From positions 74,477,554 through 74,541,553 of the forward strand of contig OX485803.1 in assembly GCA_950295325.1 (NCBI GenBank): a DNA stretch of 64,000 nt. The letters are read 5' to 3'. Shown in pieces: positions 12,961-35,618 of the stretch (positions within the stretch are counted from its first letter, which is position 1; the number at the start of each line of letters is the position of its first letter). Below the pieces are notes generated by a model. It saw only the letters and a list, made by a program, of their open reading frames with translations, was not told the DNA's origin and ran no database searches. Position numbers and translations under genes: made by a program. Origin of the DNA: Polytrichum commune (Eukaryota; Streptophyta; Polytrichopsida; Polytrichales; Polytrichaceae).

Positions 12961-13022
12961 AGTTCATTGGCTGCTTGCAGGGCGCCATTCACTTGCCCTA
13001 GTTTCGATTTGCTATTGGAAAA

Positions 13023-14132
13023 ATGGGGCAATCGGAGTCGAAGGCCATGGCAGACATGCTGACCCCCTTAATGGAAGGCATCAAAAGCTTGATTGGAATG
13101 TTCCAAAATCAACCGAATGCACTGAACGATACCCTGCAGGAGATCATGAAGGCGAATGAGGCTCAGAAAAAAGAATTGGCGGCTGCCAGAGAGAGTGTAC
13201 TAGCCGCCGTCCATACCGTCACCGAGGTACGCAACCAAGAGGCTGCAGCAAAGAGCCGCGCAGATGCTGCTTTGGAGGAAGCGCAGAAAGCGAACAGTAA
13301 TCTCCGCCAAGGCATCCGGCCCGTTGTAATGCCCACCGAAGAGCAATACCAGACAGCCCTGAAGAAGATCGCATACAGCGCGGAGAAGTTCCACTTCGCC
13401 ATCTGCGGCACCTCCGGCAGCGGCAAATCCTCACTCATCAACGCCTTCCGCGGTGTGGAGAATGGGAAGAAAAAAGCAGCAGCTATCGGCGTCACGGAGA
13501 CAACCTCCAAAATCACGCGCTACCCCGACGCCCGCAGCGAGCTGCCCTACTCGCGGTTCGTCTGGTACGACATCCCCGGCGCGGGGACGACGGCCGTGTC
13601 GGATTGGCAGTACTTCAACGACCAAGGGCTGTTCGCGTTCGACTTCATCGTCCTGGTGTATGACGTGCGCTTCACCAAGATCGACGTGAGCATCATCGAG
13701 AATTGCTACCGCTTCAACATCCCGGTGTTCATTGTGCGTAGCAAGGCCAACCAGCACATCCACAACATGATGACAGAGCTGGAGCTCGACTCCCCACCTA
13801 GTAGCGAGGAGTCTAAAAAGAATTACGAGGATATCAGGGCCCGTTATATCCATGACACAAGATCTGATTTCGACAAGCACATCAACACCATGGCAGAAAA
13901 CCCGGAGTGGGGTGCACGGGATCGGCAAATGCTTCTCGGCCAGCGCGTTTACATCGTGTCTGCTATCAATCTCCGGTCTCTGGTGCTCAAGGCGTATAGT
14001 GTGGACGGAATAAGAGGCCTCATCGATGAGGCTATTCTGGTCGAGGACTTGCTCCGCACAGCCACGAGAAGGCGTTACTCGGAGAAAGAGTTTCCTAGAG
14101 ATGGAGATTTCCGGGATCATCATCTGGCGTAA
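13023..14132 (+). CDS. IRG-type (interferon-inducible-like) GTPase, intronless
   Basis: A 369-residue uninterrupted frame, GC-richer than its surroundings. N-terminus MGQSESK fits an N-myristoylation signal (Gly2, Ser6). Residues ~40-95 are Ala/Glu/Lys-rich and probably coiled coil. The G domain has P-loop GTSGSGKSS at 129-137 (Lys135), a GVTETT switch-I stretch, G3 DIPGAGTT, and RSKAN in the G4 position where IRG proteins have a TKVD-like motif. FDFIVLVYDVRFTKIDVSI between G3 and G4 has the IRG pattern. The tail (SAINL, then a short helical region) completes a compact IRG fold with no second domain. Known: IRG GTPases of animals act at membranes, often in cell-autonomous immunity. The substrate and role in a plant are unknown. 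The start is supported by AAAAATGGGG context and the myristoylation motif. Long antisense frames here are shadows. Confidence 0.85.
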   Translation: MGQSESKAMADMLTPLMEGIKSLIGMFQNQPNALNDTLQEIMKANEAQKKELAAARESVLAAVHTVTEVRNQEAAAKSRADAALEEAQKANSNLRQGIRPVVMPTEEQYQTALKKIAYSAEKFHFAICGTSGSGKSSLINAFRGVENGKKKAAAIGVTETTSKITRYPDARSELPYSRFVWYDIPGAGTTAVSDWQYFNDQGLFAFDFIVLVYDVRFTKIDVSIIENCYRFNIPVFIVRSKANQHIHNMMTELELDSPPSSEESKKNYEDIRARYIHDTRSDFDKHINTMAENPEWGARDRQMLLGQRVYIVSAINLRSLVLKAYSVDGIRGLIDEAILVEDLLRTATRRRYSEKEFPRDGDFRDHHLA

Positions 14133-16440: not shown

Positions 16441-17253
16441 CACTACACTAAATATGGTATTTAGTGTCACTATGGTAACTTTTCGTATGATGTATCGCAT
16501 GACTAAGTTGACAAATACTGTCATGGATGATGGATGAGTTCATTCATTGGCCAAAACCCTACCTCCACTTGTCAGCTACTTGTGATGAGATGTTGTCATG
16601 GATGTTTGAAATTTGGATGAAAATTAACTGGGTAAGTGACAGTAATTGCAACACTGTAAATCTATAATCTTACAAGGAATGACAAATAATGTTGGGTTAG
16701 TTTAGGGCAGGGGCTGTGGGCGTGGCAGGAGACCATGTCCCATGGCCCACGGATGAAGGGGGCGGGAGACGGCCAACCTTGGCATGGGGCTTGAAGGAGG
16801 GCAAACACTTACTACACTAAATATGATATTTAGTGTCACCAATTCCAATTGTCTTGCTCAATACTAATTGTAAACCCCGGTATAGTGTCACCAACACTAA
16901 ATGTTAACCCAACATCATTTGTCATTCCTTGTAAATGTAAGTTTTGTGGGGGATTATAGATTTACACTGTTGCATTTACTATCACTTACCAAGTGAGTTT
17001 TCATCCAATTCAATCATCCATGACAATATTTTGTTGCATAAATGTTGGGGTGTACAATATAGGAAGTCTCGTTTAAGGAAGAAGATAGAAGTGAAGAAAT
17101 TGATCTGCAAGGAGGGTTTTGGGCAATGGATGAAGTTAAAGCTATCATCCATCATCCATGACAATACTTGTACACTTATTCATAAGAACTGTCACTAGAA
17201 AAGTTACCATAGTGACATAAAATGCCATATGAAACTAAATATCACGTGTAGTG
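16441..17253. mobile_element. Foldback element with long terminal inverted repeats
   Basis: The left end CACTACACTAAATATGG and the right end, read in reverse, CACTACACGTGATATTTAG match. The pairing continues inward through CACTATGGTAACTTTTC, GTCATGGATGATGGATGA, ATTG-CCAAAACCCT, GTAAATCTATAATC and AATGACAAATAATGTTGGGTTA. The arms are about 260-350 bp each around a ~200 bp centre with a GC-rich block (16700-16800) and an extra internal terminus-like motif at 16810. Related termini occur at 25408-25760. No transposase is present. Confidence 0.7.
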
Positions 17254-18900: not shown

Positions 18901-19452
18901 AGAAGATAAGAAAATAAACTTCTAAACTCTAGGGATTTAGACAAAATTACTTATAGGTCTTGAAGAAATTAAGAGTTAGGAGCAACCACATATGATTTCA
19001 AAGATGAGAAGGCTTACCAAAATTAGATTAAACTCAAGAACTAGAATCTAACACTATATTCGTTAATCGGAGACTTTCGAAAGTCTCAAAATAAAATATG
19101 CCCATAGTTTGGGATGCCAATATTGTGGGCATACGGAATATTGGGAACATCAAGAACATGACGATTTAAAAATTTGCACGTAAAGAATATTCTCATTACT
19201 AAAAATAGAGAGTGTCACTTAAAATGAAAACGTGAGCTCCATGTGGAAAATAACAATCGACTTTAAAAAAACAAATGGTTTATGTCATTATAGAGTTTGG
19301 GGTGTGCATCCCATAAGTAAGGCTCTTATGAATTTGGATGGCACATCCCAAACGTATATCACAATGGAGTGTGACAAGTCCATTAAGTCTATTAAAAACC
19401 AAGTCTACTAAGCGCCCATGTTTTTCGCCATGAACTCCCACCTATGTTATGT

Positions 19453-22400
19453 TTACACATCTCCGTCTTCCGCTTCATATCCATTCTCGACGTTATTTTC
19501 CGCAGCTGCAATACGTGCCAAGTTGTCTTTGGCAAAATCTATATGTTTTTGGGGGATGCTCATTGTTTCTGTTTTGGAACCTTTGCACGGCTTCCAAGCA
19601 CAAAGTATAGTATCCGTGTTTATCCAAACCGGTGTGTACGCTGAGTCCACTGTCCACTTAAAATTCTTTTTGGTGTCCCAACCTAAATAAGTGCGTAGCA
19701 CGTTCTGGTCTTTAGTACTTGGACGACAATATTCCACCTCAATCTGACGAAAGTTGGGGCTAGTTCGAACAAAATTGGGTGAAGACAATGCTTTCACCAA
19801 CCAAATTGGCTTGGGATGTTCCTCATCCCCTGCTCGTACAAGGACCAAATAACCTTCATGGCAATCAACACCTACACGAAACGACGGTGTCGGTCGATTG
19901 CGGGCAGGGCCAACGTAATGCTCGTCCATTGCGAACTCTTCACGAACGTCTCCATTGCTAAAAACCATGGTGTCGGACTCGACAACCGTCAAACGACTTT
20001 GTGGCCAAAATCCTTGTGTTAAAGTTGTACGGGTGTCACCACCAAGTGTCATTAGGGCCAAGCGAATGCGATCCCAATACGCAATCAAAGGTTCATGAGT
20101 ATCTCTAACACGTCTAGTGATGTCCTCCTCACACAACTCTTTCCAATATTCAATGAAACCGGATATGCCTTTGATGATTTCCGGCCCATTCCTCATGGGG
20201 TCGGGTTTGCAAGGCTTTGGATCTCCATCCGGGAGCAAACATTTCCCATCATTGTCTTGACGCCATACAAGTATACCATCATCCGGGCCCCAATTAGGAG
20301 ATGTGTAAAAAAACTTGAATTGCATGGCTGGGAGATCATCATCCCTTATATAGAATCGGAATTGTTGTACTTTGGTATGCCCCACCAAACGGTCCCCTCC
20401 CTTCAACATGTATGACTTGGTGAAGGCCTTGAAATCTGGTACTTCTTCAATCATGTGCGGAATTACTGGCATATGGTCCAAATCCATATACGATTTCATA
20501 AGAGGTATGGTTGGAAAATCTTCTTCATGCAACTTCATGCTCCACCGTCCGAATGATGCATCAATGTCGTCATGTGTATGTCCCACCATAAAAAACGACA
20601 CAAACACCTCCTTGAAGATTCATTTCGCCACGAGCAATGACCAAAAACAAAATACGTATCGACATTTGTTGTCTTTCGTGCAATTATCAAGTTGAACGTG
20701 AAGAGTTGGAGTCAATGGTTTTGCACAAATAGGTTCTCCCAGTGGTTCTAGCAATGACGACATACAAACCTCCTTCCCCGCAAGCACTGCTTCGTAAAGG
20801 GATGTCGTTCCACAACCATCAAAAAGTGCACGTGATGAATGTAACGGTGGCTTCTCCAGATCGCGCAAGAGTTTTGCAAATGAACCCACTGTGTGGTTAG
20901 CATCACCAGGGTAAAAATCCAACCCATAATGGACATATTTTACGTCTCCATGGTCGTGGGCAATCATCCCTGCGAACAAAAACAAACTATGCTTGAACAA
21001 CAACAATAACAACGACAACTCCAAACGGAGGTATGAAATTGGACATTTGGCAAACACACCCAGTAAAATTTGAGAGAATTTGAATACATATTTGTGATTC
21101 AATACAAACCTGTGACAGATGCGGGCAACTTGAAGAGACCATCCGTGGCCTTTATTTTGCGTGCATAACAAGGGCATGCGGTCTTGGCGTGGTCCATTTT
21201 ATCATGGATGATTGTTAGAACCTCTGTAGGCCTCATTATGGATAAAGCACGGTTCTTGTAGTAATCTTGACGGTGAGCCTCTTGGTTGTTGACATGTTCA
21301 ATATATTTTGTTTGGTGTCTAGTGTGGGATTCGGTGCCTATGGGGTGGACGTCTCGAAGACCTTTGTATTTTTCACACGTCGTACACCTAGCGAATTTGT
21401 CCCCAGGTCTCTTCAAAATGTATTCGGCAAACTGTTGGTTTTTAATCACACTCAACTTGGACAAAGAAATGGGCCCACATCCCGCTATGCGACCCACTTC
21501 GTTGATGTCCGTTAATATGTTCTTCCATTTTGTACCCGTGGGCAACACCATTTGTACAACTTTCTCCCCTGACGACAATGTCCTCGTCTTGTGGGGCATT
21601 GCATCGGCTAATGGGACTATGATGGTGGAGAGTGTCGCGGAGGCTTGGAGTGTAGCCTCCCTAGGTTTCTTTGTGCCCGAATTGCCATGAAATCGAGAGC
21701 GGCGACCCAACAATGAATATTTTTGAAGCCTATAAAAGTCAGACTTTGACACGGCGTGGATGGTATACCACGCAGTACAACACACTTCCACATTCTTAAG
21801 TGTGACCACCTTATGCCCATGGGTGTCAATGTGGACATTTCTGTGGACCTTGAGTTTCTTTGCCGATCTCATACGGAAATCCGCAAGCCACATCTCTTGA
21901 CGTAGGGACTAATTTTCTCCCGCGGGAAAAATTGGCAACATTTCCTCTCGCAACAGTCCTTGGCGGACGCAAGATGGATAGATTCGTCTCCCAATATGCG
22001 ATCCCGTCGACGTTCCTTATCTCCACGAGGCACACGGTTAGAATCATATCTGTATAGGCCTTTGCGAGGACGTATTTTGGCCAACAAAGCTAATTGCGTT
22101 TGCTTATGGCGGCGCTCATGGTCCAACAAGCTTACTCTGTCATGGAGAACCCGACAAAGAGGCCATCGACACAAGGAAAATCTCCATGTCACCGGGACGT
22201 CAAGCGGAAGCAAAGAATTCAAGATGCACACACCCACATCATCGGGACCAAGGGGGTTGGCATCCACACAATCACGGGGATCGGAGTTTCTACATATGCC
22301 ATCTGCCACCGGGACACCAATATCGTTGAAAAGAACAACATCAAGGCCCACCCATTGCTCCATACCAAAACCGGCACATAACGGAATGTCATCATTGTTA

Positions 22401-22576
22401 TCATTGTCATCCCCGGAACGTATAGATTGTTCGTGCGCTTCAAATGATTCGTAGTAGGATGCATCCACAAACCCACCCATGGCATTTGCCATGACTACCC
22501 GCCGATGGCGAAGATAGTTCACAGTCACCATCGGAATAGGAAGTTTTTGTGGACAACTCCAATGAACTATATCCAA
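19453..22576 (-). pseudogene. DUF7869-like, transposase-like gene, decayed
   Basis: Read on the minus strand. A 5' part (22576 or Met at 22492, to ~21911) is acidic, then ends in a Cys-rich stretch (KDCCERKCCQFFPREKI). It joins, after a frameshift at 21906-21910, to LRQEMWLADFRMRSAKK. A GT-AG intron (21109-20970) joins ASVT|G to MIAHDHGDVKYVHYG. In-frame TGA at 20620-20622 interrupts SLLVAK and IFKEVFVSFFMVGHTHDDID; the frame then stays open to TAA at 19453. Acidic positions in KMDHAKT, QLDNCTKDNK and GHTHDDID are spaced like an RNase H-fold DDE/D core, and FARCTTCEKYKG is a zinc-knuckle candidate. From memory these blocks match the plant and invertebrate DUF7869 family; I have no search result. 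With one frameshift and one nonsense codon it is probably inactive. It is divergent from the composite gene at 27868. Confidence 0.7.
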
Positions 22577-22579
22577 CGT

Positions 22580-23050
22580 GCATCGCCATCCAACCTAAAC
22601 AAACCACCAATAAATGACCAACACAACAACCACCGCAATGCATACAAAAGCGGATATAAGATATGCCTACATATATAGCTAAAAAATCACAACCAACTCT
22701 TGCCACACCGTTGCGGGACCTCACATATGAAGACGAACGTGCGTTCGACAACAGTCCCATGACATGCAAATCGTACACGGGACTCAGACGTCCCTGCACA
22801 ACGGAACCCCATTCCGATATATATTATCCGTGAAGGGCTTTGGGTCGAGTCGCTAATAAAACATCGGAAGGGTTGTCCACCACCAAAGGACAACATAAGC
22901 ACATATATTCACAAACGCGCGGACGAAAACATCAACCCAATATACAATAAAATCTAAATATGACATATTATAAGAGCATCTAAAATATATTTGCCACATT
23001 ATCCACATACAGTAAGCATCATATTTGAGGGGCGTGTATTTGATGGGCGA
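22580..23050. other. 5' flank of the DUF7869-like gene
   Basis: Small minus-strand frames without recognisable content. It may hold the promoter or 5' UTR of the minus-strand gene. No palindromes here; they start at 23054. Confidence 0.35.
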
Positions 23051-23053
23051 GTG

Positions 23054-23873
23054 TTTACGAACGATCGTTCGTTAGCTACAGCCGAAATTGAGGGCTTATG
23101 TACACGAACGATCGTTCGTAAGTTCTAGCCGAAACTTAGGGGCGGATGCATACGACTGATCATATGTATGTTACAGCCGTGACATTGTTTGGCAAAAATG
23201 ATTGGACACGTCCGAATAGAGATATCTATAGCCACGTTACAGGGATACATGAAATCCAATATCCAGTGGAAAATGACAATCGACATCTATCACTAAAATA
23301 ATGATTGCATAGATACGAACGAGCGTTCGTATCTATCCTAAACATGGTGTAGTCCTCTACACATGCTTGCGTCAATAGGTCTGTTGGTGGATGCGTGGAC
23401 GGTGGACCGGTGGTATTTACGAACGTGCGTTCGTAAAATTGGAAAACCTAATTCTCAGTGGACACAAATGGTAGTGCGAAATACGAACGCCCGTTCGTAT
23501 TTAACTTTCATATTGTTAACGTGGCCAATGCAAGGAAGTGTATAAATTAAGGGATGTTTATGGATTCTTGAAAAATAATCCCAGTTGATATTTACGAACG
23601 TACGTTCATAAATATCCCATCATCAGATGTTCCGTTGGAGAAAACGGTTACACGGGAACTTATGCGCGTCTGGGTCTTGAAGGCAGATATACGAATGTAC
23701 GTTTGTATATCATCGACACAATTTTCGTGCCTAGTTCTGTCTATAAGTAACTCAATGTCGAGTACGGTTGTGATCAACTTACGAACCCACGTTCGTAAAC
23801 AACTCACATCACATGTATGTACCTCTTGTACATGTGCTACCAACTCACGTTTACGAACGTGCGTTCGTAAACG
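23054..23873. repeat. Palindromic site cluster A (10 sites)
   Basis: Copies of a palindrome with core ACGAACG, two free bases, CGTTCGT begin at about 23057, 23104, 23311, 23416, 23479, 23591, 23686, 23779 and 23848, plus a decayed one near 23151. Spacing is 35-210 bp. Flanking bases extend the pairing differently in each copy (for example AGAT/ATCT at 23311 and CGTTT/AAACG at 23848). Central bases vary (AT, AG, TG, CC, TA). The cluster lies upstream of the minus-strand DUF7869-like gene. Confidence 0.9.
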
Positions 23874-23899
23874 TCTGGTATTTGCGGCGGTATATACGG

Positions 23900-26090
23900 G
23901 TATGTGCAGTCTGTAGTGGACCTGGGAGGTGTAAGGTTGGCGCACAAGAAAATGGTTTGAGCGCGTTCCAGTCAGGTCTGTGGAGCGCACACTTGGATGT
24001 GCCGCAGAAAAGAGCTCTTCTGTGGGGGGAAGAGCTTTAAATACCTTCCCCCCAATGGTTCAAAATCCCTTGGATGCTATTTAAAAAGCGGATTCTTGCC
24101 GCCTACTTTGACCTAACAATATGCCATTCCATCCATACGTAATATATAAATAGCATTATGTATGGAACATGTCTTGTGTGCACGCAACATATTGTAAATC
24201 TGTAAATCCGTCGCACACCTTAGTTGTTACCAAGGTCGCACGAAAATATGTCTATATGTCTATATGTCTATATTTATATGTGTATATATATATAATTTAT
24301 ATTATACTATTATATTGTTTTATATATGGGTTATTATATTATATATATATGGGTTGATGGGTTAACATTGAGTATTAAATTATTTGCGACTAAGGTGTGA
24401 AGTCCAAGTGAATTGATGAAGGTCTAAGTGATATATATATTTATACACACAATGAGGTAAGAGTGGCTAAGAACATATTGTGGAATCCCCTAAAATTGTA
24501 GGTATCATATGATTTACAAAAAAAAAATGCTTGTAATATGGTCACCAAGTGCATGAATACCAATAAAAAGTCGCTTAATCCATAATGGTTTGTGCTAGGT
24601 AGATTGAGGACATTTGGAACTTGAGGCTCACCAAACATTGGCCCATATTAATATGAATCATTGTTGCAATTTATCATTGGTGAAAATTAAAGTTTAATGC
24701 ACTAGTATTCGATCGTTAGTTCAAGTTGACACCTAATTAAATGACTTGACGTCCAATTGGAAATTCACTTTAGATCCACCATGGTGTGGAAATGGATAAC
24801 TAATTTGGAATGGTGCATACAATAGTATGCACTTACAATTATATATTTGTATTATTTGCAATAAGAAGTATGTGCATGACCATAGCTTAAACTGTTGATT
24901 TAAGTTGAAGTCTTAAACCATTCATGTTATAATAAGACTAAGTATGTATTGTGTGATCAAATTGCACTCAAAACTATTAAGGTGAAAGGGCTAGCATTTC
25001 AAAATTCATTCTTCACCCCCTAAACCAATGTTTTATATCAAAATGACAATTATTGGCATGAGTCTAGATTATTATAGTTGCTATGACCCAAATAAAGCAA
25101 TTTCCAATCGATCCAATATTGGTAGACCATTTTGACATGATGCGCATAGACCACAACATGGCCATATATAAGAAAGATTGGTAAGATAAAAAGATGTAGG
25201 ATTTAGGGTTTGGGGTTAGGGTATAGAGTTTGTGAAAGTTGTCTATGTGGTTTCCGGGCTTAGGGTTTAGATCGTTACTTCAATGCATTATATACACAAA
25301 CAATATCGACTCCTAAATAATCCATATCGCACTAACTTAATTTATGGGAAGCTCATACTATCAATTGATACTACTAGCAAAACATGCGACCACATGGCTA
25401 AAATACACTACACTAAATATGATATTTAGTGTTTGATTGTATAATATAGTGTTGTTACACTATCATGGTCAACACTAAATTTCAATTCTTTGATAATTAG
25501 TGTTGGACATATTAAATGGGCCATCACATTTCCTACTACCATGTCCTTTATGCTTTTATGATTGTTAATTGTTTTTTTCATATTAATTTCCTTACACAAA
25601 ATTTGTGCATGCGACATCCACATATTACCATTATAGTTGAAATTAAGTGTTTGAGTTCGCAATGAATAGTAGTTACTTTCATAGGGTTAGTGATATTTAG
25701 TGTACTATGCGTTTGTATTTAGAATATCTAACACTAAATATCATATTAAGGGTGGTTCAAGCTAACACCTCATTAAATTAATAACATCGTATTGAAAATT
25801 GAATTTTCATCCACCTCTTGTGGAGATTCAGATAGCCCCTCTCCACAATTCAAATTGAGTCATTTATATATGTAATATTTATTTGAGGAACCATTGAACA
25901 ACTTTAAAGATGTCTCGTTCATGAAAACGACATTTGCATCTTGGGGATGGAATCTTCATCAAAAACCTACTAAATGACATGAATTGTTAAATACAAATTC
26001 TCTGAACATACTTTTCTAAAATATGTTTACAAGGAATCCTCCCATTTCCTATTTCATTTTTCTTGAACCCTCATCCCTCCATGTCCCCAT
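23900..26090. other. Intergenic interval between the two divergent accessory genes
   Basis: No gene and no palindromic site. It contains an AT-rich TATATG stretch (24240-24360) and a MITE-like element with ACACTAAATATGATATTTAG termini at 25408-25760. If the flanking genes belong to one element, their promoters should lie here or at its edges. Confidence 0.5.
25408..25760. mobile_element. MITE-like element with ACTAAATAT termini
   Basis: Left end CACTACACTAAATATGATA and right end CTAACACTAAATATCATATT; internal AACACTAAATTTCA and ATTAGTGTTGGACA repeats. It shares termini with the foldback element at 16441-17253. Confidence 0.5.
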
Positions 26091-26091
26091 G

Positions 26092-26275
26092 CTATCCTGT
26101 CATCCCCATCCCCTCCCCTCCCCATCCCATCCCATCCTCATCCCCTCCCCATCCCATCCCATCCTCATCCCCTCCCCCTCCCCATTCCCTCCCCATTCCC
26201 CCCATCCCCATCCCCCTCCCCCTCCCCATTCCCTCCCCATTCCCCCCATCCCCATCCCCATCCCCCATCCCAGCC
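26092..26275 (+). repeat. C-rich (CCCATCC)n-type repeat
   Basis: Units of CCCATCC, CCTCCCC and CCCCATTCCCT in tandem. The Pro/His/Ser/Ile-rich ORFs across it on both strands are low complexity. A GC-rich block with GCCGCCGCTTGGAAACCCTA follows at ~26285, resembling a plant promoter or leader edge. Confidence 0.85.
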
Positions 26276-26455
26276 CTCGCCAGTGGCCGCCGCTTGGAAA
26301 CCCTAGCGGCGCCGGCTACCTCCCCGCGCCCATCTCTCTCCTCCTCATTTGTCATTTGGAGCAGAGGAGGAGAGGAGCTCTTAGGTGCGGCGAAGCCCTT
26401 GCCAATTTTAGAGCCTCATTGTGAATGTTGTTTTGTTGTGTTGTCAGAACCTTGA

Positions 26456-26720
26456 GAGTAGGAAAGCTTGAGAGGTTGAAAGTTATAGAAAGCTTGAGAG
26501 GTTTAGAGTTTTAGAAAGATTGAGAGGTTGAGAGTTTTAGAAAGGTTGAGAGCTTGAGAGTTTCTGAAAGGTTGAGAGCTTGAGAGTTTCTGAAAGGTTG
26601 AGAGCTTGAGAGTTTCTGAAAGGTTGAGAGCTTGAGAGTTTTGGAAAGCTTGAGAGCTTGAGAGTAGGAAAGCTTGAGAGCTTGAGAGTTTCAGAAAGCT
26701 TGAGTTTTCTGAAGCTTGTG
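26456..26720 (+). repeat. ~26-bp minisatellite (GAGAGTTTCTGAAAGGTT type)
   Basis: About ten units of GAGAGTTTCTGAAAGGTTGA plus GAGCTT, with variants AGAAAGCTTGAGAG. It is probably part of the untranslated leader of the composite gene, between the GC-rich block and a possible splice donor at 26938. Confidence 0.75.
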
Positions 26721-27264
26721 AGTTGTGTACATCAGGGTTTGTGTAGGATTTGCATATAAGTTGTGAAGGCTTGAGAGTGTGAGAAAGGAGTGAGGGTAGA
26801 AGAAATTGCAATTGAATTTGCAATTGAAAGCGAATTCAGCGCTTTTGAAAGACAATTTGGTGTGCATTTGTGAGGATTTCTGGATTTCTCAGTAGGAGGC
26901 AGGAGGTTTTGTGTGCAACAATTCAATGTGAGTACATGTTTCCTTTACAAATCACTCCTTCACAATCTGAAATTGTTGTTTGATGAATTCATTGTGATTT
27001 GTTTTATGCATTATGAGGTATGGCATGTTTTGTATGAAATAACACTTTCCTCTTCATTCTGAATTATCAATCACTGACTCGCAATTTTGTTCTGATTCCA
27101 TTTTTCACTTGTGTTTCATCATTCTGATCACGAGTTGCAGGATCATGAACAATGCAAGATCGCAACATTCATACCAACATATATATGTATATGTACATAT
27201 ACATATACATATATGTACGGATACATGTATATAAATAAATATACCATTTTCTAATCCCAGATGA

Positions 27265-27837
27265 CCACATTTACGAACGTTCGTTCGTAAATGTGGCGTG
27301 AATACACCCCTTACCCCACAAACATATACGAACGTGCATTTGTAAATACGCACCTCACCCTCCATTTTTACGAACGCACGTTCGTATATTCGTCTATACC
27401 CTGTACATCAGGCAAATCCTCAAATCAAATTACACATACAAAAATACGAACGAACGTTCGTAATCACAAACTATAACAATATACCAAACCCTTCATGGTA
27501 ATTGTCTGCATTCCCTAGTAGCATAATTTACGAACGCACGTTCGTAAATAAGAACTAAAGTATTAATTCACCTATTTAGAAGATACTCATGGAAATTATA
27601 ACAATCCTCGTGGAAATTAGATAACCCTGGACAACTCGTAGACTTGTTTAGAAACAATACGAACGCACGTTCGTAAATTTGTGCCAAATATACCTTAGCA
27701 ACCACATTCTTTACGAACGATCGTTCGTAAATGAAATCAGCGAAGACATCATTAAAACTCCTCACGGGAATCCATAGCCAGCGTTCATTGATTAGTATAT
27801 ACGATTTGCTTGTCAATTACGAACGCTCGTTCGTAAA
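27265..27837. repeat. Palindromic site cluster B1 (8 sites)
   Basis: Sites at about 27265, 27325, 27367, 27444, 27528, 27657, 27710 and 27816, all in the putative first intron. The first has arms extended to CCACATTT/AAATGTGG. Central dinucleotides are TT, TG, CA, AA, CA, CA, AT, CT. The 27325 copy is decayed on its right side (CATTTGT). Confidence 0.9.
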
Positions 27838-28836
27838 CACAATACTAAATGTTTATGTGCTCTGCAGATGGCTAGACCGAGCAGGAGCGCCATTGAGATG
27901 TTCGCAGTGCAGATAGATCAGCTACCAGAATCAGTGTCCGACCCCAACGGAAACAATAATTATGTCCCCAAGGAGGACTTCATTGGGGAATGGACGGCAC
28001 TGCCAGAGAAGACATCAGACGGTCTTTTCTGTCTTCGCTTTACCTACGAGTTGGAAACGACGCCGGACCAACCAGAGCAATGGGTGCAGATGAAGACTTG
28101 GGAAGTAGAATCAATTGAGGCACAAGGAGATTATGTGATTTTAGACATGAAAAACAAGAAGGATCACATTAACCTCTTGTTAGAGTACAGGAGACATAGT
28201 TTCTCCTACACATACGCAGAAAATAACGTAGTGGTTGATGCCAAACACTTCCTCAAGGACCTCTTCACGAAGTACGCCCTGAGCTCGTACTGGACAGCAA
28301 GGAAGTTGTCCGCGCTCTCATTGAATATCTCCAAGTACAATAGCGCGGTCGCCGAAGCCAACAAGAAGAAGAAAAGCCCACAAAAACCATCCACATCTGG
28401 GGCAGGAGGATCGAGAAGTGCACCCAGGCCGGTGCCTTCCGCGAGCAGGGTGACGGGGGGTCCCAGCCGACATTCCACGCCATCGAAGAGGTCCCGGGAC
28501 GAAATGGAGAGGTCTGGGGTAACAGAGGGCGCTGAGGTGAGCTCTCCTCCCGTGATGCCAACCCCTTTAAAGAAGGGTGAGAATCCAGATGCAGTAAAGG
28601 CAACGAAGATCCTACGAGACTTCAAGAATTACTCGAAGGATTGCTGGCCCATGGGGCGCCACTTCACGTTCAACGTGGACTGCTTCAAGTGCGAAAAGTC
28701 CCCCAACAAGTGGGTGGTAAGGTCTCGCGAGAGCGGTGGGGTGAAGTGGCAGATCAACAACCTCATGAATAACGTCAAGTGGGATAGGTAGACCGTCTGC
28801 GTCATGCCCAAAGGGCTGACATCCTGACCGACAGAG

Positions 28837-29160
28837 ATGGATTGGCCGCGAATCCATAATAGAAAATTCTGGATTATAGATGGTCAGCACAGCTTGGAGG
28901 CATCGCAACAGATCCTCAAGGATGACAACTTCCAGCACGAGCTGAAGGCTGACCTGCGGTACTGGAAGGCGTTCTTGGTCTGGTCGGACGATTGGGACAA
29001 GCTGCGCAAGATTTCAACCTTCCTGAACTCCGGGAACAAAATCAAGGCGTTCGAGGCTTCGTGGGCGGCTAACATAGTGGCTGCGAGAGACATCTGGGTG
29101 GCACATGGATGCCCACCAAAGGAGAGGGAGAATGCCAAGAACCAGTCTCCCCAATGGAAG
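28837..29160 (+). other. DGQHR-like domain region of the composite gene
   Basis: Starts with MDWPRIHNRKFWIIDGQHS and runs through a helical region (DLRYWKAFLVWSDDWDKL). The hydrophobic strand followed by DGQH resembles the DGQHR signature known from DndB-like and ParB/Srx-fold proteins; here the Arg is Ser. It lies directly after the two in-frame stops, so if they are real it could be translated only by re-initiation at 28837. Confidence 0.5.
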
Positions 29161-29166
29161 GTGAGT

Positions 29167-29246
29167 TTATAAATGAACGTTCGTAAAGTATTGGATTCAC
29201 GAAAACATCAATTACAGACTTAATTTACGAACGTGCGTTCGTATTA
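29167..29246. repeat. Palindromic sites in intron 29161-29276 (2)
   Basis: A decayed copy (AAATGAACGTTCGTAAAG) begins at ~29171 and a good copy (TTTACGAACG, TG, CGTTCGTATT) at 29224. Both fill most of a 116-bp intron. Confidence 0.85.
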
Positions 29247-30621
29247 TGTGCAACACTGACATCTTGTTTTGTGTAGGCATTTTGCGATGCTATGGTAGAC
29301 AAGTTTTCTTCCATTGATATGAAGTCCACCACCACCAAATCTGTGCTTGAGCATGAAGGGTGAGCTCAGACTGATCTGCTACAACAGGGACACATGGGAC
29401 TTGTGGACCCAGTTTTTTGATGCACACAGCTCGGGCGATTTGGTCAATCCCGACACGAAGGAGAAGTACAACATGGAAAAAACCGGTGAAGGGCCCCCAC
29501 TACTGAGGGAGTTCTTTAGACACCTCCAGGGATTGACGGAGTCAGAGCTGAAGAGGTGTGCGATTCATGTTCTTGGGAACACCGTGGGAAGAAACCTTCC
29601 CTATCCCAAGATCTTTTTGAAGAGGCCAAAGCACAAGCCCGGCACGTACTCTATCAAGGAGTGGTGTGACCACCGGAAGCTGAAGACTGCTGCCATGAGA
29701 GAATTGAGCGTACTCGTACCAGAGTACAAAATCTTTGAAGTCGACGGCGACATCAACTGGCCGCAATGGCAATTGTTAAAGGTTGACTGCAACATCAACG
29801 GAGCCTCCATGTGCAGTCTGGTCAAGGAGCACGCCTCGGTTTTGAAGTTGAAGGGGAATAAAATGACTAAGAAAACCAACACGGATCCCCATGAGGTAAT
29901 GTTGCACATAAAATTTTTGGAGAGGAAGAGGAACGCCACATTCGAAGGAGTGGCAAGGTTTTGCGTGATGACCTCCGGCGTGGAGAGGGTCACATTTTCC
30001 AAGTGGGACGGCACCATCAGCAGGGCCGAGGTGAGGGAGGATCGACGGGGTTGCCCATTTGCCCTGATCGATTTCAGGGGGATCCCGGGTGCGTCAAGGC
30101 AGGGGGGAAGGACATTCCCTTCTACAACCCCTTCATGGCCAAGTTTATGGAGTTCAAATCGCCGGCCATGAGGGAGCCACACGTTTGGCTGTGGATAGTC
30201 GAACAGGAGAAGTTGTCGGTCGTCACAGAGTTGTACGAGCAGAAGATCAAATTCGAGTACAGCATCTTCCACAGCACGTACGTGCCAGCGAAGACGGAGG
30301 GGATCGTGGCCATCAACGAGGCCAGGGGCAACAAGCAGGTGGGAGCGGTCAGCCTGATTTTCTTGACGTACAATGAGCTTAGGGATGGGCGACCGCCTAT
30401 CAAGGCTAACAACACGTTCAAGAAAATCTACAGCATCCCGCATCCCCCTCCCAAGGATCTGCTGCAAGAGACCCTCTACACCGTCTTCCCCGCCCTGGAA
30501 CTCAGGATGGAGTTCTACGTCTCTGTATTGCAAAGTCTGGTTATAAGTGGAGAGACGGTGTACAACGTATGCGGAGGCTCCAAATTCATGTATGCGGCCA
30601 TGGTAAGTTGTCCAGGCTCCA

Positions 30622-30800
30622 TTTACGAACGCTCGTTCGTAAAGTTAACCAACTTCTCAATGTATTGTTTCACAGTCGTTGCACGTGACGCATTCATGTT
30701 TACAAACACTCGTTCGTAAACATAGCCCCCTTCGTAATGTCATGCTTGACAACTCATTGCACGCCACGCTTTGATGTTTACAAACGTGCGTTCGTATTTT
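30622..30800. repeat. Palindromic sites in intron 30603-30826 (3)
   Basis: Sites at 30622, 30697 and 30776. The latter two carry ACAAAC in place of ACGAAC, a G-to-A change at a CpG. Confidence 0.9.
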
Positions 30801-31808
30801 CTGACATTGTTGCTCTCTTATCACAGATGATGGGTCTCGTAGTCAACACATTCGTTGACGTTGTTGACAAAGAAGACTTCAAGATCCACCGTGCGAAGGC
30901 GTCGACGATGGACCTCAAAGACATCTCTATCCCCAGGATGGACTTCAGTATGCCCGCCGACGAGGGCATACCAGCCCACGATTCAAAGGACGACGAGCCC
31001 GCCCCCTCCGCCAACGTGGACGCCATTCTGCAATCCTTCGACATACCCCCGCTTCGGATCTTGCCGCCAACGACAGATCTTCCCGACCCTCAAGGGACGC
31101 CGGGTGGTTATACCGGGTCGTCCGCCGGGACAACCCTGGACATCCTCCCCGCGAGAACGTCTCTTGCGGAGCCTTTCGGAACGCCAGGCGGATGCTCGAC
31201 GTCACAGTCTCCAAGGCCCGCCGTGGTTCCGAAGATGGAAACTCTGGACATCCTCGACCAACGCTCGTATCCATCTTTGGACCTCTTCCGCAACACGAGG
31301 AGGAGGATGAAGAAGACTCCATACGTGGAGTTGCCGCCGGGAGCAATCATCGAGGTCTCGGACGAGGACGAGGGGGACATGGACATCATGGCCGAGCTTG
31401 GGGTGGACTACGACAAGAACAAGCAGGTGAAGGAGGAGGCGCTCACCGTCGTTGAGCTCAACGCCAAGCTTGAGGCGAAGATGAAGGAGGAGATGGTTGC
31501 AGCCCAGGAGGAGAGCGCCAAGCATCTGGCCAGGCTGCAAGAGCAGCTGAGGGATTCAGCGGCCAAAACCGACGCCATCTTCAAGATGCTCAGAAACATG
31601 CAGAGCTTCTATGCGCCGGTCCAGCAACTCTACCCCTTCCCCCCTGAAGGATACCCCTCACAGCCCCCACCTCCAGTCATGTACCAAGGAGGGCCTTCCC
31701 ACCAAACAGCGCCACACCCAACGCCGGCGGGAAGTCCATTGCCCCCGGAGGTGACGGCAACCACCTCAACCTCCCACGATGCAATCACGGCGGTGCTAAG
31801 GGAGGACG

Positions 31809-31836
31809 AAGATTTACGAACGCGCATTCGTGAATC
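31809..31836. repeat. Palindromic site inside coding exon 3
   Basis: A copy with arms GAAGATTTACGAACG and C-TTCGTGAATCTTC lies in frame and encodes EDLRTRIRESS. The outer arm bases pair as well as the core. One of only two sites in exon sequence. Confidence 0.85.
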
Positions 31837-32185
31837 TTCAGGTCCGGCAGTCCTCACCCCTCCCCCTTCAAGGGTAGGACTGCCCACAGACACTGACGTC
31901 GTCCCAAGGGTTGTAGATAGGCGGGGCGATGACATTGCGCAACACACTGACATGGTCATTGTGGAGGAAACGCAGGGGAGCCCCAATGACGCGGCAGGTC
32001 CACGTGGGATGGACGTGGAGAGCCCTGGCCAGGGACGACATCCATCCCCGCGCATGGAGGATGTCCCCATGGAGAGACTCGACCTTGGCGGGGACGACGA
32101 CGTGGAGCTCATCCAACAAACCCAGTCGTCTCAGGAGGAGCGTCCAACGGATGTCATGGAAGCAGAGGCTACTGCCCCAATGGAT

Positions 32186-32323
32186 ATTACGAACGCGCGT
32201 TCGTTAATCAAAGAGGTAACTCATTTCTGAGAATGCCACATGTTTTACAAACGCGCGTTCGTTAATCAAAGAGGTAACTCATTTCTGAGAATGCCACATG
32301 TTTTACAAACGCGCGTTCGTAAC
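32186..32323 (+). repeat. 58-bp tandem duplication carrying palindromic sites at a splice donor
   Basis: The unit holds ACGCGCGTTCGTTAATCAAA, GAG|GTAACTCATTTC and CACATGTTTTACAA. It occurs twice in full with a third site start; the period is 58 bp (32193, 32251, 32309). The first copy has the exon 3 donor at 32216, and the second copy repeats the same donor at 32274. Confidence 0.85.
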
Positions 32324-32610
32324 ATCACTAACCCCGTGTTGTTTTCTTGGCGCTTCAACTCCATCGACATCACGTTGCCTGCGCGAGCCTTTTTCTACGT
32401 GATCCCTTAGGCCGATCAATTTTGTAGGACACTGTATTTTTTCCTTAGGAAACTGTGATAGATTATCACGCGAGACAATCGTACACATTCACCGAATTAA
32501 TATATGAGCAGACGATCTCTGCTCGCATCCCCTCAACTTATTGCATATTCTCGCATCTTGTGTTGTCTATGTTCTTCCGCGTCTTTGCATTCTTTGCTGA
32601 CTCACCTGTC

Positions 32611-32765
32611 TCACGAACGCTCGTTCGTAAAAATGTGTGACCCCGTCTCGACCTCCTTCGCGAACGAGCGTTCGTATATGTATGTGCATCCGCGCTCACG
32701 AACGAGCGTTCGTAAATGATGCGCACTGCCCTGCAGCCTTCATTCACGAACGGTCGTTCGCAAGT
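32611..32765. repeat. Palindromic sites in intron 32216-32897 (4 further sites)
   Basis: Sites at about 32611, 32658, 32696 and 32743 with arms beginning CACGAACG or CGCGAACG rather than TTACGAACG. The left outer base is C here, so this subgroup has less symmetric outer arms. Confidence 0.85.
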
Positions 32766-32897
32766 TTGCCCTTGTGCACATTTGCCTTGCACCCTCCTTA
32801 CTTCCTCCTCTTTTCCCATAATGCATCGTCTTTATTTTCAACGCACAAATTTCATTATTGGATCATAGAATTAAACTAGTCGCGTTGTTCATCACAG

Positions 32898-33665
32898 GAC
32901 CCCCCGGAGATAGGTCGCAACCCCTCGACCAGTGGACCTCGAACCCGGAACAAACCTTTCCTCGTTTTTTACCTCAACGGGGTGTTGTGTCACACCCAAC
33001 ACATCCCCAGGGTTCCCACGCGTCCCTTCCGTCACCCCGACGAAAGGGACTATGACGGCGAGCTCGACACCCTCATAAACCGCAAGGCTGTCCGCGCCCG
33101 TCCTGGCCTGCGGGACTTCCTTCGCGAGGTGGTCGAGTTCGCCCACGTCGTTGTGTGGAGCTCCATGGTCATGGAGAACACGGAGCCCATCGTCGACTTC
33201 TTGTTCCGTGATCTCCCGAGCCCTTGCCTCGTCCTCGGCCAAGAGGAATGCGACGAGCTGTTCGACGAGAAGGGTCAACCGGTGCCCAAGTTTGGCGGTC
33301 GAGGCGGAGGACAACAATTCGTCAAGGTCCTCCGTTCAAGACTCTGGCAAGGCGTCCCCCGTCTGCAGGGGACGCCCCACGGGTGGTGGCCGACTCCTGA
33401 GAACACCGTACTCATCGACGACAGCCCCACCAAGAGCGTCTTGAACCCCCCGGGCAACGTCATCTTCCCGGACACTTGGACCGGCGATAGGCAAGACACA
33501 TTTTTGGTCGATAGGCTAGCCCCCTACCTTAGAAGGCTCGTGCTCCACGCCGGTAGCATCCCATTTTTTGTTAGGTCCAACCCCTTCGGCAATGCGGCGC
33601 TAAGCCCCTGCGATAATGTATATAAGAGCATCATGAGGCTCGCCAAACTCAATAAATTGATTTGA
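32898..33665 (+). other. FCP1/NIF-phosphatase-like C-terminal exon of the composite gene
   Basis: After ATCACAG|GAC the frame gives NKPFLVFYLNGVLC, VRARPGLRDFLREVV, VVVWSSMVMENTEP, TVLIDDSPTKSVLNPPGN and DRQDTFLVDRLAPYLRRL, the block order of FCP1/NIF (HAD) phosphatases. The nucleophile block should read D-x-D/N-G; here the first Asp is Tyr (codon TAC at 32970), so phosphatase activity is doubtful. Ends at TGA 33663-33665. The exon could be a separate gene, but it joins exon 3 in phase. Confidence 0.7.
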
Positions 33666-33779
33666 AATTCCTCCATGTCTTTGCTTGTTATCATGTGGTT
33701 CACATATCTAATGCTTGCTCCGTTTTTGGATGTCTTTTGTTGTTGTGATTGTTGTTGTTCTTGTTCTTGCCCATAGTTT

Positions 33780-34747
33780 GCCCCCATATGCGACGCCCCT
33801 GTAGTCGACGGCCCTTCCCGTCCCCTCTCGCCCCCTGCCTCCCCTTCCCAGGACGTCACGGACTTCCAAATGCCATCCCTCTACCAGTTCTCGGCGGTGG
33901 ACACGGCCTCGGCCGTGGATTACTCCCACGACGTCGGCGTCGTCAATAGCCCGCCCCCAGCACTTGTCCCCCGCGCGTACGCCCCGTCGCCCTCCCCCCT
34001 CTCCAAGGAGAAACGGACGCTCGTTCGTTTGGGACAGCTCTCGCCCTCGAGGGACGATGCCGTCGCTCGTCGTGGGCCCAGCCGGCGTCTCCGCATGGAA
34101 GGCCCCTGTTGCCACACCTCCCCCGCCGACTCCGTTCCTCCCCCCGCAACGTCCTCCGCGATCGTGGGCCCTGCCTTGACTCCCCCCCGCCATTCACCAA
34201 TGCAATAGTTCCATCGGCTCCGGATGCTCCCATCGACGCCCCCCTCGTGCCCGCCATCCCCGGCATGGACTTCCCCAAAGCCAAGGTGCCCTCCTCAACC
34301 CTAAACCCCTTTCCCGCTTTTTGCTTCCCTTGTCTTCCGTGTGTGTGCCGTTCTCTTTACGAGCGCCCATCCCAAACCGCCCTCATTATTTTCCACACTC
34401 CATTCTTATTCTTATCTTCCTATGACGTTGTTCCGCAGGTGGCTACCCGCTCTCTCGGTGCCCGGCCCTCCTTCACGTCTTCCTTGGATAGGCATGCCCT
34501 CAAGGCCGCATCATCCAAGTCCGATCGTTGTTTGGCCCTCCGCCGTAGCGCAAGACATTCCCTCTCGCAAACGCACTCGTATTCCACTCACAATACCACT
34601 CCGTACAATTCGGGAGCGCGTCCGGAAGTTTGGAATAACGACACGTATTCCGGGTCCGTCAACAAAAACGGTTATAGCCGCGGGCCTGAGATTTTCAAAG
34701 CCGTGGAGGCTGCCAAAAACAAAGCCAAGGCCGCGAAAAAAAATTAG
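33780..34747 (+). other. Possible downstream exons, Pro/Ser-rich (unassigned)
   Basis: After a pyrimidine/TTGTT-rich tract ending CCCATAG|TTT, a Pro/Ser/Ala-rich frame stays open to 34208 (SQDVTDFQMPSLYQFSAVD near 33858). Another possible exon starts after TTCCGCAG at 34438, with a basic stretch (PSRKRTRIPLTIPLRTIRER). The frames do not join simply. A half palindromic site lies at 34015. Could be further exons of the composite gene, a second element gene, or degenerate GC-rich sequence. Confidence 0.35.
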
Positions 34748-35618
34748 TAGGACGGACTAGTGGGAATAGAAGCATACGAGTGGGACGGACTCCCTAAATG
34801 CGCTTAGGGGTAGAACATTTTAGTGGTGACTTTCTATTCTATTTCAAGTTACTCAAGACATTGATGGTATTTCCATTATAATTGTATTTCACTCCCATTG
34901 AATTCATTCAACTTCCAATCATTCTCCGCATCCTCCCTTCCATTCATAACGATCTCTCATTTCATACGCTACTATTTTCATGTATGCCTCACATTTTTGT
35001 TGACTTTGATTCCTTCATGTCTAATAATAGTATTCAAAATTATACATATGGGATTTTAGGTTGTCATTACTAGTCCAATTTTGAAGAGTGCATCCTTCAA
35101 TAGTCTCATAATCAACAAAAAGTCTCCAATTACCGAATATAATGTTATCTAACTGACCATCACAAAAAGAAATGAATGAAAACTTTGAGAGAGAATTGTT
35201 GAACTTATATGGAATGTTCTCAAAGACTAATAGGCCGCCCACACCTACTATGGTGGGCATTAGTGAACAGGCGAACTCCGTTCACTGCCACCAGTAAGTG
35301 TGGGCGAGAACCAAGGAGAACCGGCGGTTACTTCCACAAGTTCCACATGAATTAATTGATTTGGAGAAATAACCCGGTCGAAGTTCAAGACTTCACGATA
35401 ATTTGGTACCTAAAGTTACAAAGATGAACCGGTGAGTTTGAGAAATAACCTGGTTGAACAAGACCTCACAAAATTAAACTTATCAAGCGTTCTAGAGGAA
35501 TATAGAGAATATACCTCAAATCAATAAAAGAAAAACCAAAAGTTCACGCACATGTAACGAATTGGACTTGGAAAGAATAGAACTTTAACCGATCATGCGA
35601 AAAAAATCTCCATGGGCA

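Follow-up and report, generated by a model that had tools for sequence, protein, structure and literature searches.

A high-copy two-gene DNA transposon of Polytrichum commune with family-private palindromes and a candidate self-recognition gene

A stretch of 64,000 nucleotides of Polytrichum commune (contig OX485803.1, positions 74,477,554 to 74,541,553, here referred to as the window) contains a large gene of unusual composition at positions 27868–33665, and the locus raises the question of what such a gene does beside a dense family of palindromic sites. An earlier note had read the gene as a junction of DGQHR-like, N-methyltransferase-like and FCP1-phosphatase-like parts, and had proposed a DNA-modification or element-control system. 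Coordinates below are those of the window unless another locus is named.

We compared the ends of copies and found that the gene belongs to a complete DNA transposon of 16.1 kb (19050–35146), in which gene A on the minus strand and gene B, the second gene, on the plus strand are arranged divergently. The element is bounded by 13-bp terminal inverted repeats (TIRs) of the form AACACTATATTCG...CGAATATA(G/A)TGTT. Genome matches start at the left TIR, AACACTATATTCG (19050–19062, plus strand), an end that is identical in 11 copies, and the right TIR, CGAATATAATGTT (35134–35146, minus strand), was placed by the same comparison. The target site duplication (TSD) of 4 bp is exact in 9 of the 11 copies compared and reads ATCT on both sides of the window copy (19046–19049 and 35147–35150). 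In the genome (408 Mb, 64 contigs) the transposon is present in well over 100 copies, with at least 146 for gene B exon 4, at least 148 for exon 2, the spacing being mostly constant, and at least 106 for gene A. The window copy is dead, with stops and frameshifts.

The ends (AA)CACTA...TAGTG(TT), the large size, the two genes and the dense motif repeats recall CACTA (En/Spm) transposons. However, membership in CACTA was rejected because the TSD has 4 bp and lies outside AACACTA, instead of 3 bp directly outside CACTA; moreover, the putative transposase here is a DUF7869 protein and the motifs are not subterminal. The element resembles Sola transposons, matched by description only, in its 4-bp TSD, its short TIR (reported as 11–1124 bp for Sola) and its size, sometimes above 15 kb in that group, which is known from the moss Physcomitrella (PMC10741241), and also in candidate D-D-D residues of the DUF7869 protein. 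In contrast, the Sola literature examined makes no mention of a second gene like gene B accompanied by private palindromes. Scans of IMG/VR with gene A and with exons 1 and 2 of gene B returned no relatives, so a viral origin is unsupported.

Gene A (19453–22745, minus strand) has two main exons, is broken here and encodes the DUF7869 (PF25273) protein. The family of the window copy (f1) and a second family (f2, see below) share the D residues of IHDKMD, LDNC and GHTHDDID, which may be catalytic. Since it is a conserved protein of the element and has kept these candidate residues, the product of gene A is presumably the transposase, which points to DUF7869 as a transposase domain; a literature search on DUF7869 found no paper.

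That gene B is a single gene of four exons, as had been claimed, is borne out. On the plus strand, exon 1 (27868–29160) encodes an N-terminal domain, a basic NLS-like linker and a DGQHS motif (about 28879–28893), and exon 2 (29277–30602) a region resembling a methyltransferase (IDFRxIPGA...NVxGGSK), which is frameshifted in the window copy. Exon 3 (30827–32215) contains the remainder of a motif-I-like segment and then a proline/acidic low-complexity region, while exon 4 (32898–33665) encodes a NIF/FCP1-like HAD domain whose motif I is YLNG in the window copy and DLNG in intact copies. The exons join in phase, and introns 1 (29161–29276), 2 (30603–30826) and 3 (32216–32897) are all GT-AG and of phase 0, as in intact sister copies. 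Gene B of the window copy is broken by a TAG stop around 28789 (exon 1), by frameshifts and by 12 stops across the joined frame; the frame is fully open in the sisters L045 and L044 (1596 codons each) and in a younger copy at C5:44632885- (1607 codons). Between two f1 subfamilies, dN/dS is 0.065, 0.12, 0.26 and 0.10 for exons 1 to 4. Gene B is thus under purifying selection, and the four exons therefore function as one protein-coding gene. A conserved, coding-looking stretch 3' of the NIF stop codon (33777–34747, plus strand) is present at the corresponding place in the young copy, in L045 and in the f2 element on C5, with a C-terminal SRG(P/A)EIFR common to f1 and f2; it probably represents additional or alternatively used 3' exons, or else a third gene. 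The window copy also has a 58-bp tandem duplication (32187–32319) that covers a palindrome together with the donor site of exon 3, an instance of repeat growth at a palindrome.

The three domain calls fared differently. The FCP1-like part is confirmed, and its identity as a NIF/FCP1 domain (PF03031) is certain from the profile match (2e-15, 57.1 bits, with a cut-off of 21.8 bits). Like FCP1/SCP phosphatases, gene B retains motif III (IDDS); unlike them, it is fused to a transposon protein, and its motif I, which reads DLN(G/E) where f1 and f2 copies are intact, departs from the catalytic DxDxT or DxDx(T/V). Phosphatase activity is doubtful because the second Asp of motif I is replaced. The DGQHR-like part is plausible only. 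Its DGQHS signature lies in a long conserved block between f1 and f2, but no single profile match over it is significant in three libraries (PF03235, GmrSD_N, E 0.076; TIGR03187, E 0.43; a ParB-like PHROG, E 0.16); GmrS, DGQHR and ParB-type domains are mutually related (PMC4619093).

The N-methyltransferase-like part could not be established. No methyltransferase matched gene B in Pfam, NCBIfam or PHROG, and gene B lacks both DPPY (motif IV) and FxGxG (motif I), which mark beta-class N-methyltransferases (PF01555), having IDFR and NVxGGSK instead. A likeness to motif I is seen in the segment GETVYNVCGGSK..AAM..GLVVN, exactly the part that hhalign, given a profile of ten phage enzymes plus YhdJ of E. 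coli, aligned weakly over 24 columns (E 0.024, probability 2%, score 22.2 versus a maximum of 19.4 in 20 shuffles). AlphaFold models of the 832-aa exon of f2 and of the methyltransferase-like region of f1 were too poor for fold judgement (pLDDT 34 and 41), and PDB sequence searches with two gene B regions gave nothing credible. No recognised DNA-binding domain was found in any part of gene B; NIF and DUF7869 are the only domains recognised in the element.

We further focused on the palindromes, which consist of two 9-bp arms and a 2-bp spacer and have the form TTACGAACGNNCGTTCGTAA in f1. The window holds 28 of them versus 0.00 expected, none outside the transposon, and 3737 exact 20-mers occur genome-wide (reversed-pattern control, 0). 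Sites of the TTACGAACGNNCGTTCGTAA type are clustered 5' of gene A (22731–23870, 8–9 sites) and 5' of gene B (27271–27836, 8 sites); introns 1, 2 and 3 of gene B contain 2, 3 and 6, and exon 3 contains 2. The young f1 copy has 30 sites, of which 28 are non-coding (P 4e-7 under random placement): 10 precede gene A, 9 precede gene B, and introns 1, 2 and 3 hold 2, 2 and 5, respectively. The other 2 fall in exon 3, and the outermost 3.8 kb on one side and 2.4 kb on the other are free of sites. When two f1 subfamilies are compared, arm conservation is 87–96%, versus 49–74% for the 25-bp flanks; the spacer varies, and it is the sequence of the arms that is conserved, beyond pairing alone. This persistence despite the divergence of the subfamilies points to constraint or concerted homogenisation, and tandem-repeat turnover instead of selection may have homogenised the sites. 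An array of f1-type palindromes with 34-bp spacing was also observed at C1:639365-643380 (L001-L008), beside a transposase N-terminal fragment 63% identical to f1, and is possibly a further family sharing the f1 site.

Pfam searches of the genome brought out further DUF7869 frames paired with NIF frames, forming a second set, and related families were recognised, of which f2, f3 and f4 are each described from one copy. The f2 member (C5:1400851-1416700) has the architecture of f1 and an identical TIR; its transposase is 66% identical to that of f1, and its gene B 30% over 914 residues (44% in the NIF part). Its palindrome is a different one, TTTGGGTCGNNCGACCCAAA, present in 31 copies, and f1-type sites are absent. 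In f3 (L095, C7:5157701-5165800), for which gene B is represented by part of exon 1, that exon is 43% identical to f1 and the palindrome is TTACGGACGNNCGTCCGTAA. Families f1, f2 and f3, each with a divergent gene B, carry 11–31 copies of their own palindrome per element. For the pair with the more similar proteins, f1 and f3, the palindromes are one base apart per half-site; for the more distant pair, f1 and f2, they differ throughout the arms; a CG-NN-CG core is common to the three. Since f1 and f2 have identical TIRs, transposases 66% identical and gene B about 30% identical, the divergence of the palindromes tracks gene B and not the transposase or the TIR. Cross-family sites are absent among the sampled elements, the exception being a single site of f1 type that the f3 locus keeps (L095:7006-7025) just 5' of the gene B start codon, where the remaining sites are of the f3 type. 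The fourth family (L094, C2:3669801-3677900, and C1:33993135-34018001) has a 692-aa DUF7869 frame and the palindrome CCACGGGTGNNCACCCGTGG; since later sites are 13–25 kb away, its partner gene may lie beyond the stretch examined. Genome-wide, exact palindromes number 9731 for f2, 1310 for f3 and 819 for f4, and the reversed-pattern controls again gave 0.

The two f1 subfamilies further show a mosaic history. Their dS is 0.15 in the transposase exon and 0.15–0.24 in gene B exon 4, versus 0.4–1.8 in gene B exons 1–3, and the 3' region is 97% identical; the middle of the element, that is, gene B exons 1–3 and the palindrome regions, therefore has a history unlike that of the ends. It appears as if the specificity part had been swapped as a block between subfamilies. 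Decay of the copies is methylation-like: among sister copies, C-to-T changes occur at 9–13 times the A/T transition rate at CpG and 3–7 times at other C, and the excess in the older window copy is 3–5 times and 1–2 times, respectively. Such a pattern fits cytosine methylation of the transposon by the host, palindromes included.

The earlier suggestion, that a mobile gene next to palindromes of a dedicated family might be a system of element control, is supported, and more strongly than was claimed. We give a probability of about 0.52 to the reading that the product of gene B is a family-specific self-recognition or anti-silencing factor acting on its own palindromes. Gene B, the second gene of a two-gene Sola-like transposon, would encode a nuclear factor whose dimer recognises the palindrome of its own family, one 9-bp arm on each side of the 2-bp spacer. 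With dozens of sites ahead of both genes and within each intron of gene B, the element would be a dense target of its own product, which could keep promoters and introns expressed against host silencing by cytosine methylation, with the NIF domain as a plausible link to RNA polymerase II. As families diverge, protein and palindrome would change in step, so that each family serves itself alone. The nuclear location, binding, dimer formation, anti-silencing effect and roles of the DGQHS and NIF parts are what we infer from these features.

The transposase or a host factor could also be the reader of the palindromes. CACTA/En-Spm elements have dense family-specific repeats that are bound by an element protein, and with this precedent the palindromes might be sites of the transposition machinery, at which the transposase, or gene B in the manner of En/Spm TnpA, gathers the element for excision. 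The transposase too differs between families (66%), but the palindromes avoid the ends, and f1 and f2 share a TIR while their palindromes are wholly different, which makes this explanation unlikely. We likewise assign a low probability to the view that the palindromes are host-factor sites or DNA/RNA structures (insulators, promoter elements or hairpins) collected by the element, with gene B unrelated. Perfect palindromes in introns and promoters could act in this way, yet a host reader does not require a motif that switches completely between families in one nucleus, and the conservation of the arms with a variable spacer exceeds pairing alone. Methylation of DNA at the palindromes by gene B, the DNA-modification system once proposed, is very improbable because the methyltransferase call is unproven and DPPY and GxG are absent: the weak likeness of exons 2 and 3 to motif I speaks for it, and the conserved NV(C/F)GGSK in families with 30% identical gene B, together with the lack of a library match, speaks against it.

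By analogy, the most likely role of gene B is to bind the palindromes and either oppose silencing or promote transcription within its own family. The best reading of the arrangement is a VANC-like principle with unrelated proteins, VANC/VANDAL itself being already known. In these Arabidopsis Mutator-like elements, a fast-evolving second protein is encoded beside a more conserved transposase, and a short family-specific motif, dense upstream of genes and in introns and often in tandem, varies by family together with the protein (PMC5735166); this protein-motif pattern has been demonstrated experimentally (PMC5735166, PMC10398659). We liken gene B to VANC because the transposase is conserved, the second protein evolves fast, a private, non-coding motif is dense in promoters and introns and forms tandem clusters, and protein and motif change in parallel. 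In contrast, VANC has DUF1985/DUF287 and a Mutator-like transposase, whereas here DGQHS, NIF and DUF7869 are found; the VANC motif is a directional 8-9-mer and not a 20-bp palindrome; and the transposon superfamily is another one. Anti-silencing here is suggested by likeness. Gene B is not a VANC by descent, though it may work like one.

A wider proposal, tentative and rated somewhat short of even odds, is an independently evolved, VANC-like self-recognition system in a superfamily of plant-type DNA transposons. Each family would encode a large DGQHS-NIF protein that recognises a CG-rich palindrome private to the family and protects or activates its own family only, and the specificity module of gene B exons 1–3 and palindromes would be exchanged by recombination between subfamilies. 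If true, sequence-specific transposon anti-silencing arose more than once, from unrelated proteins. The families described here would form a natural series, with the same scaffold and either a one-base or a whole-arm motif change, for reading the specificity code and the co-evolution of sites, and the proposal would give context for transposon-borne NIF domains.

Two neighbouring features of the window were also recorded. At 13002–14132, this plant genome has a single-frame gene whose product contains an IIGP domain, which is interferon-inducible GTPase-like (E 6e-24). MITE-type inverted repeats (ACTACACTAAATATGATATTTAGTGTT and longer arms) occur at 16452–17230 and at 25407–25756, the latter nested in the non-coding gap of the transposon.
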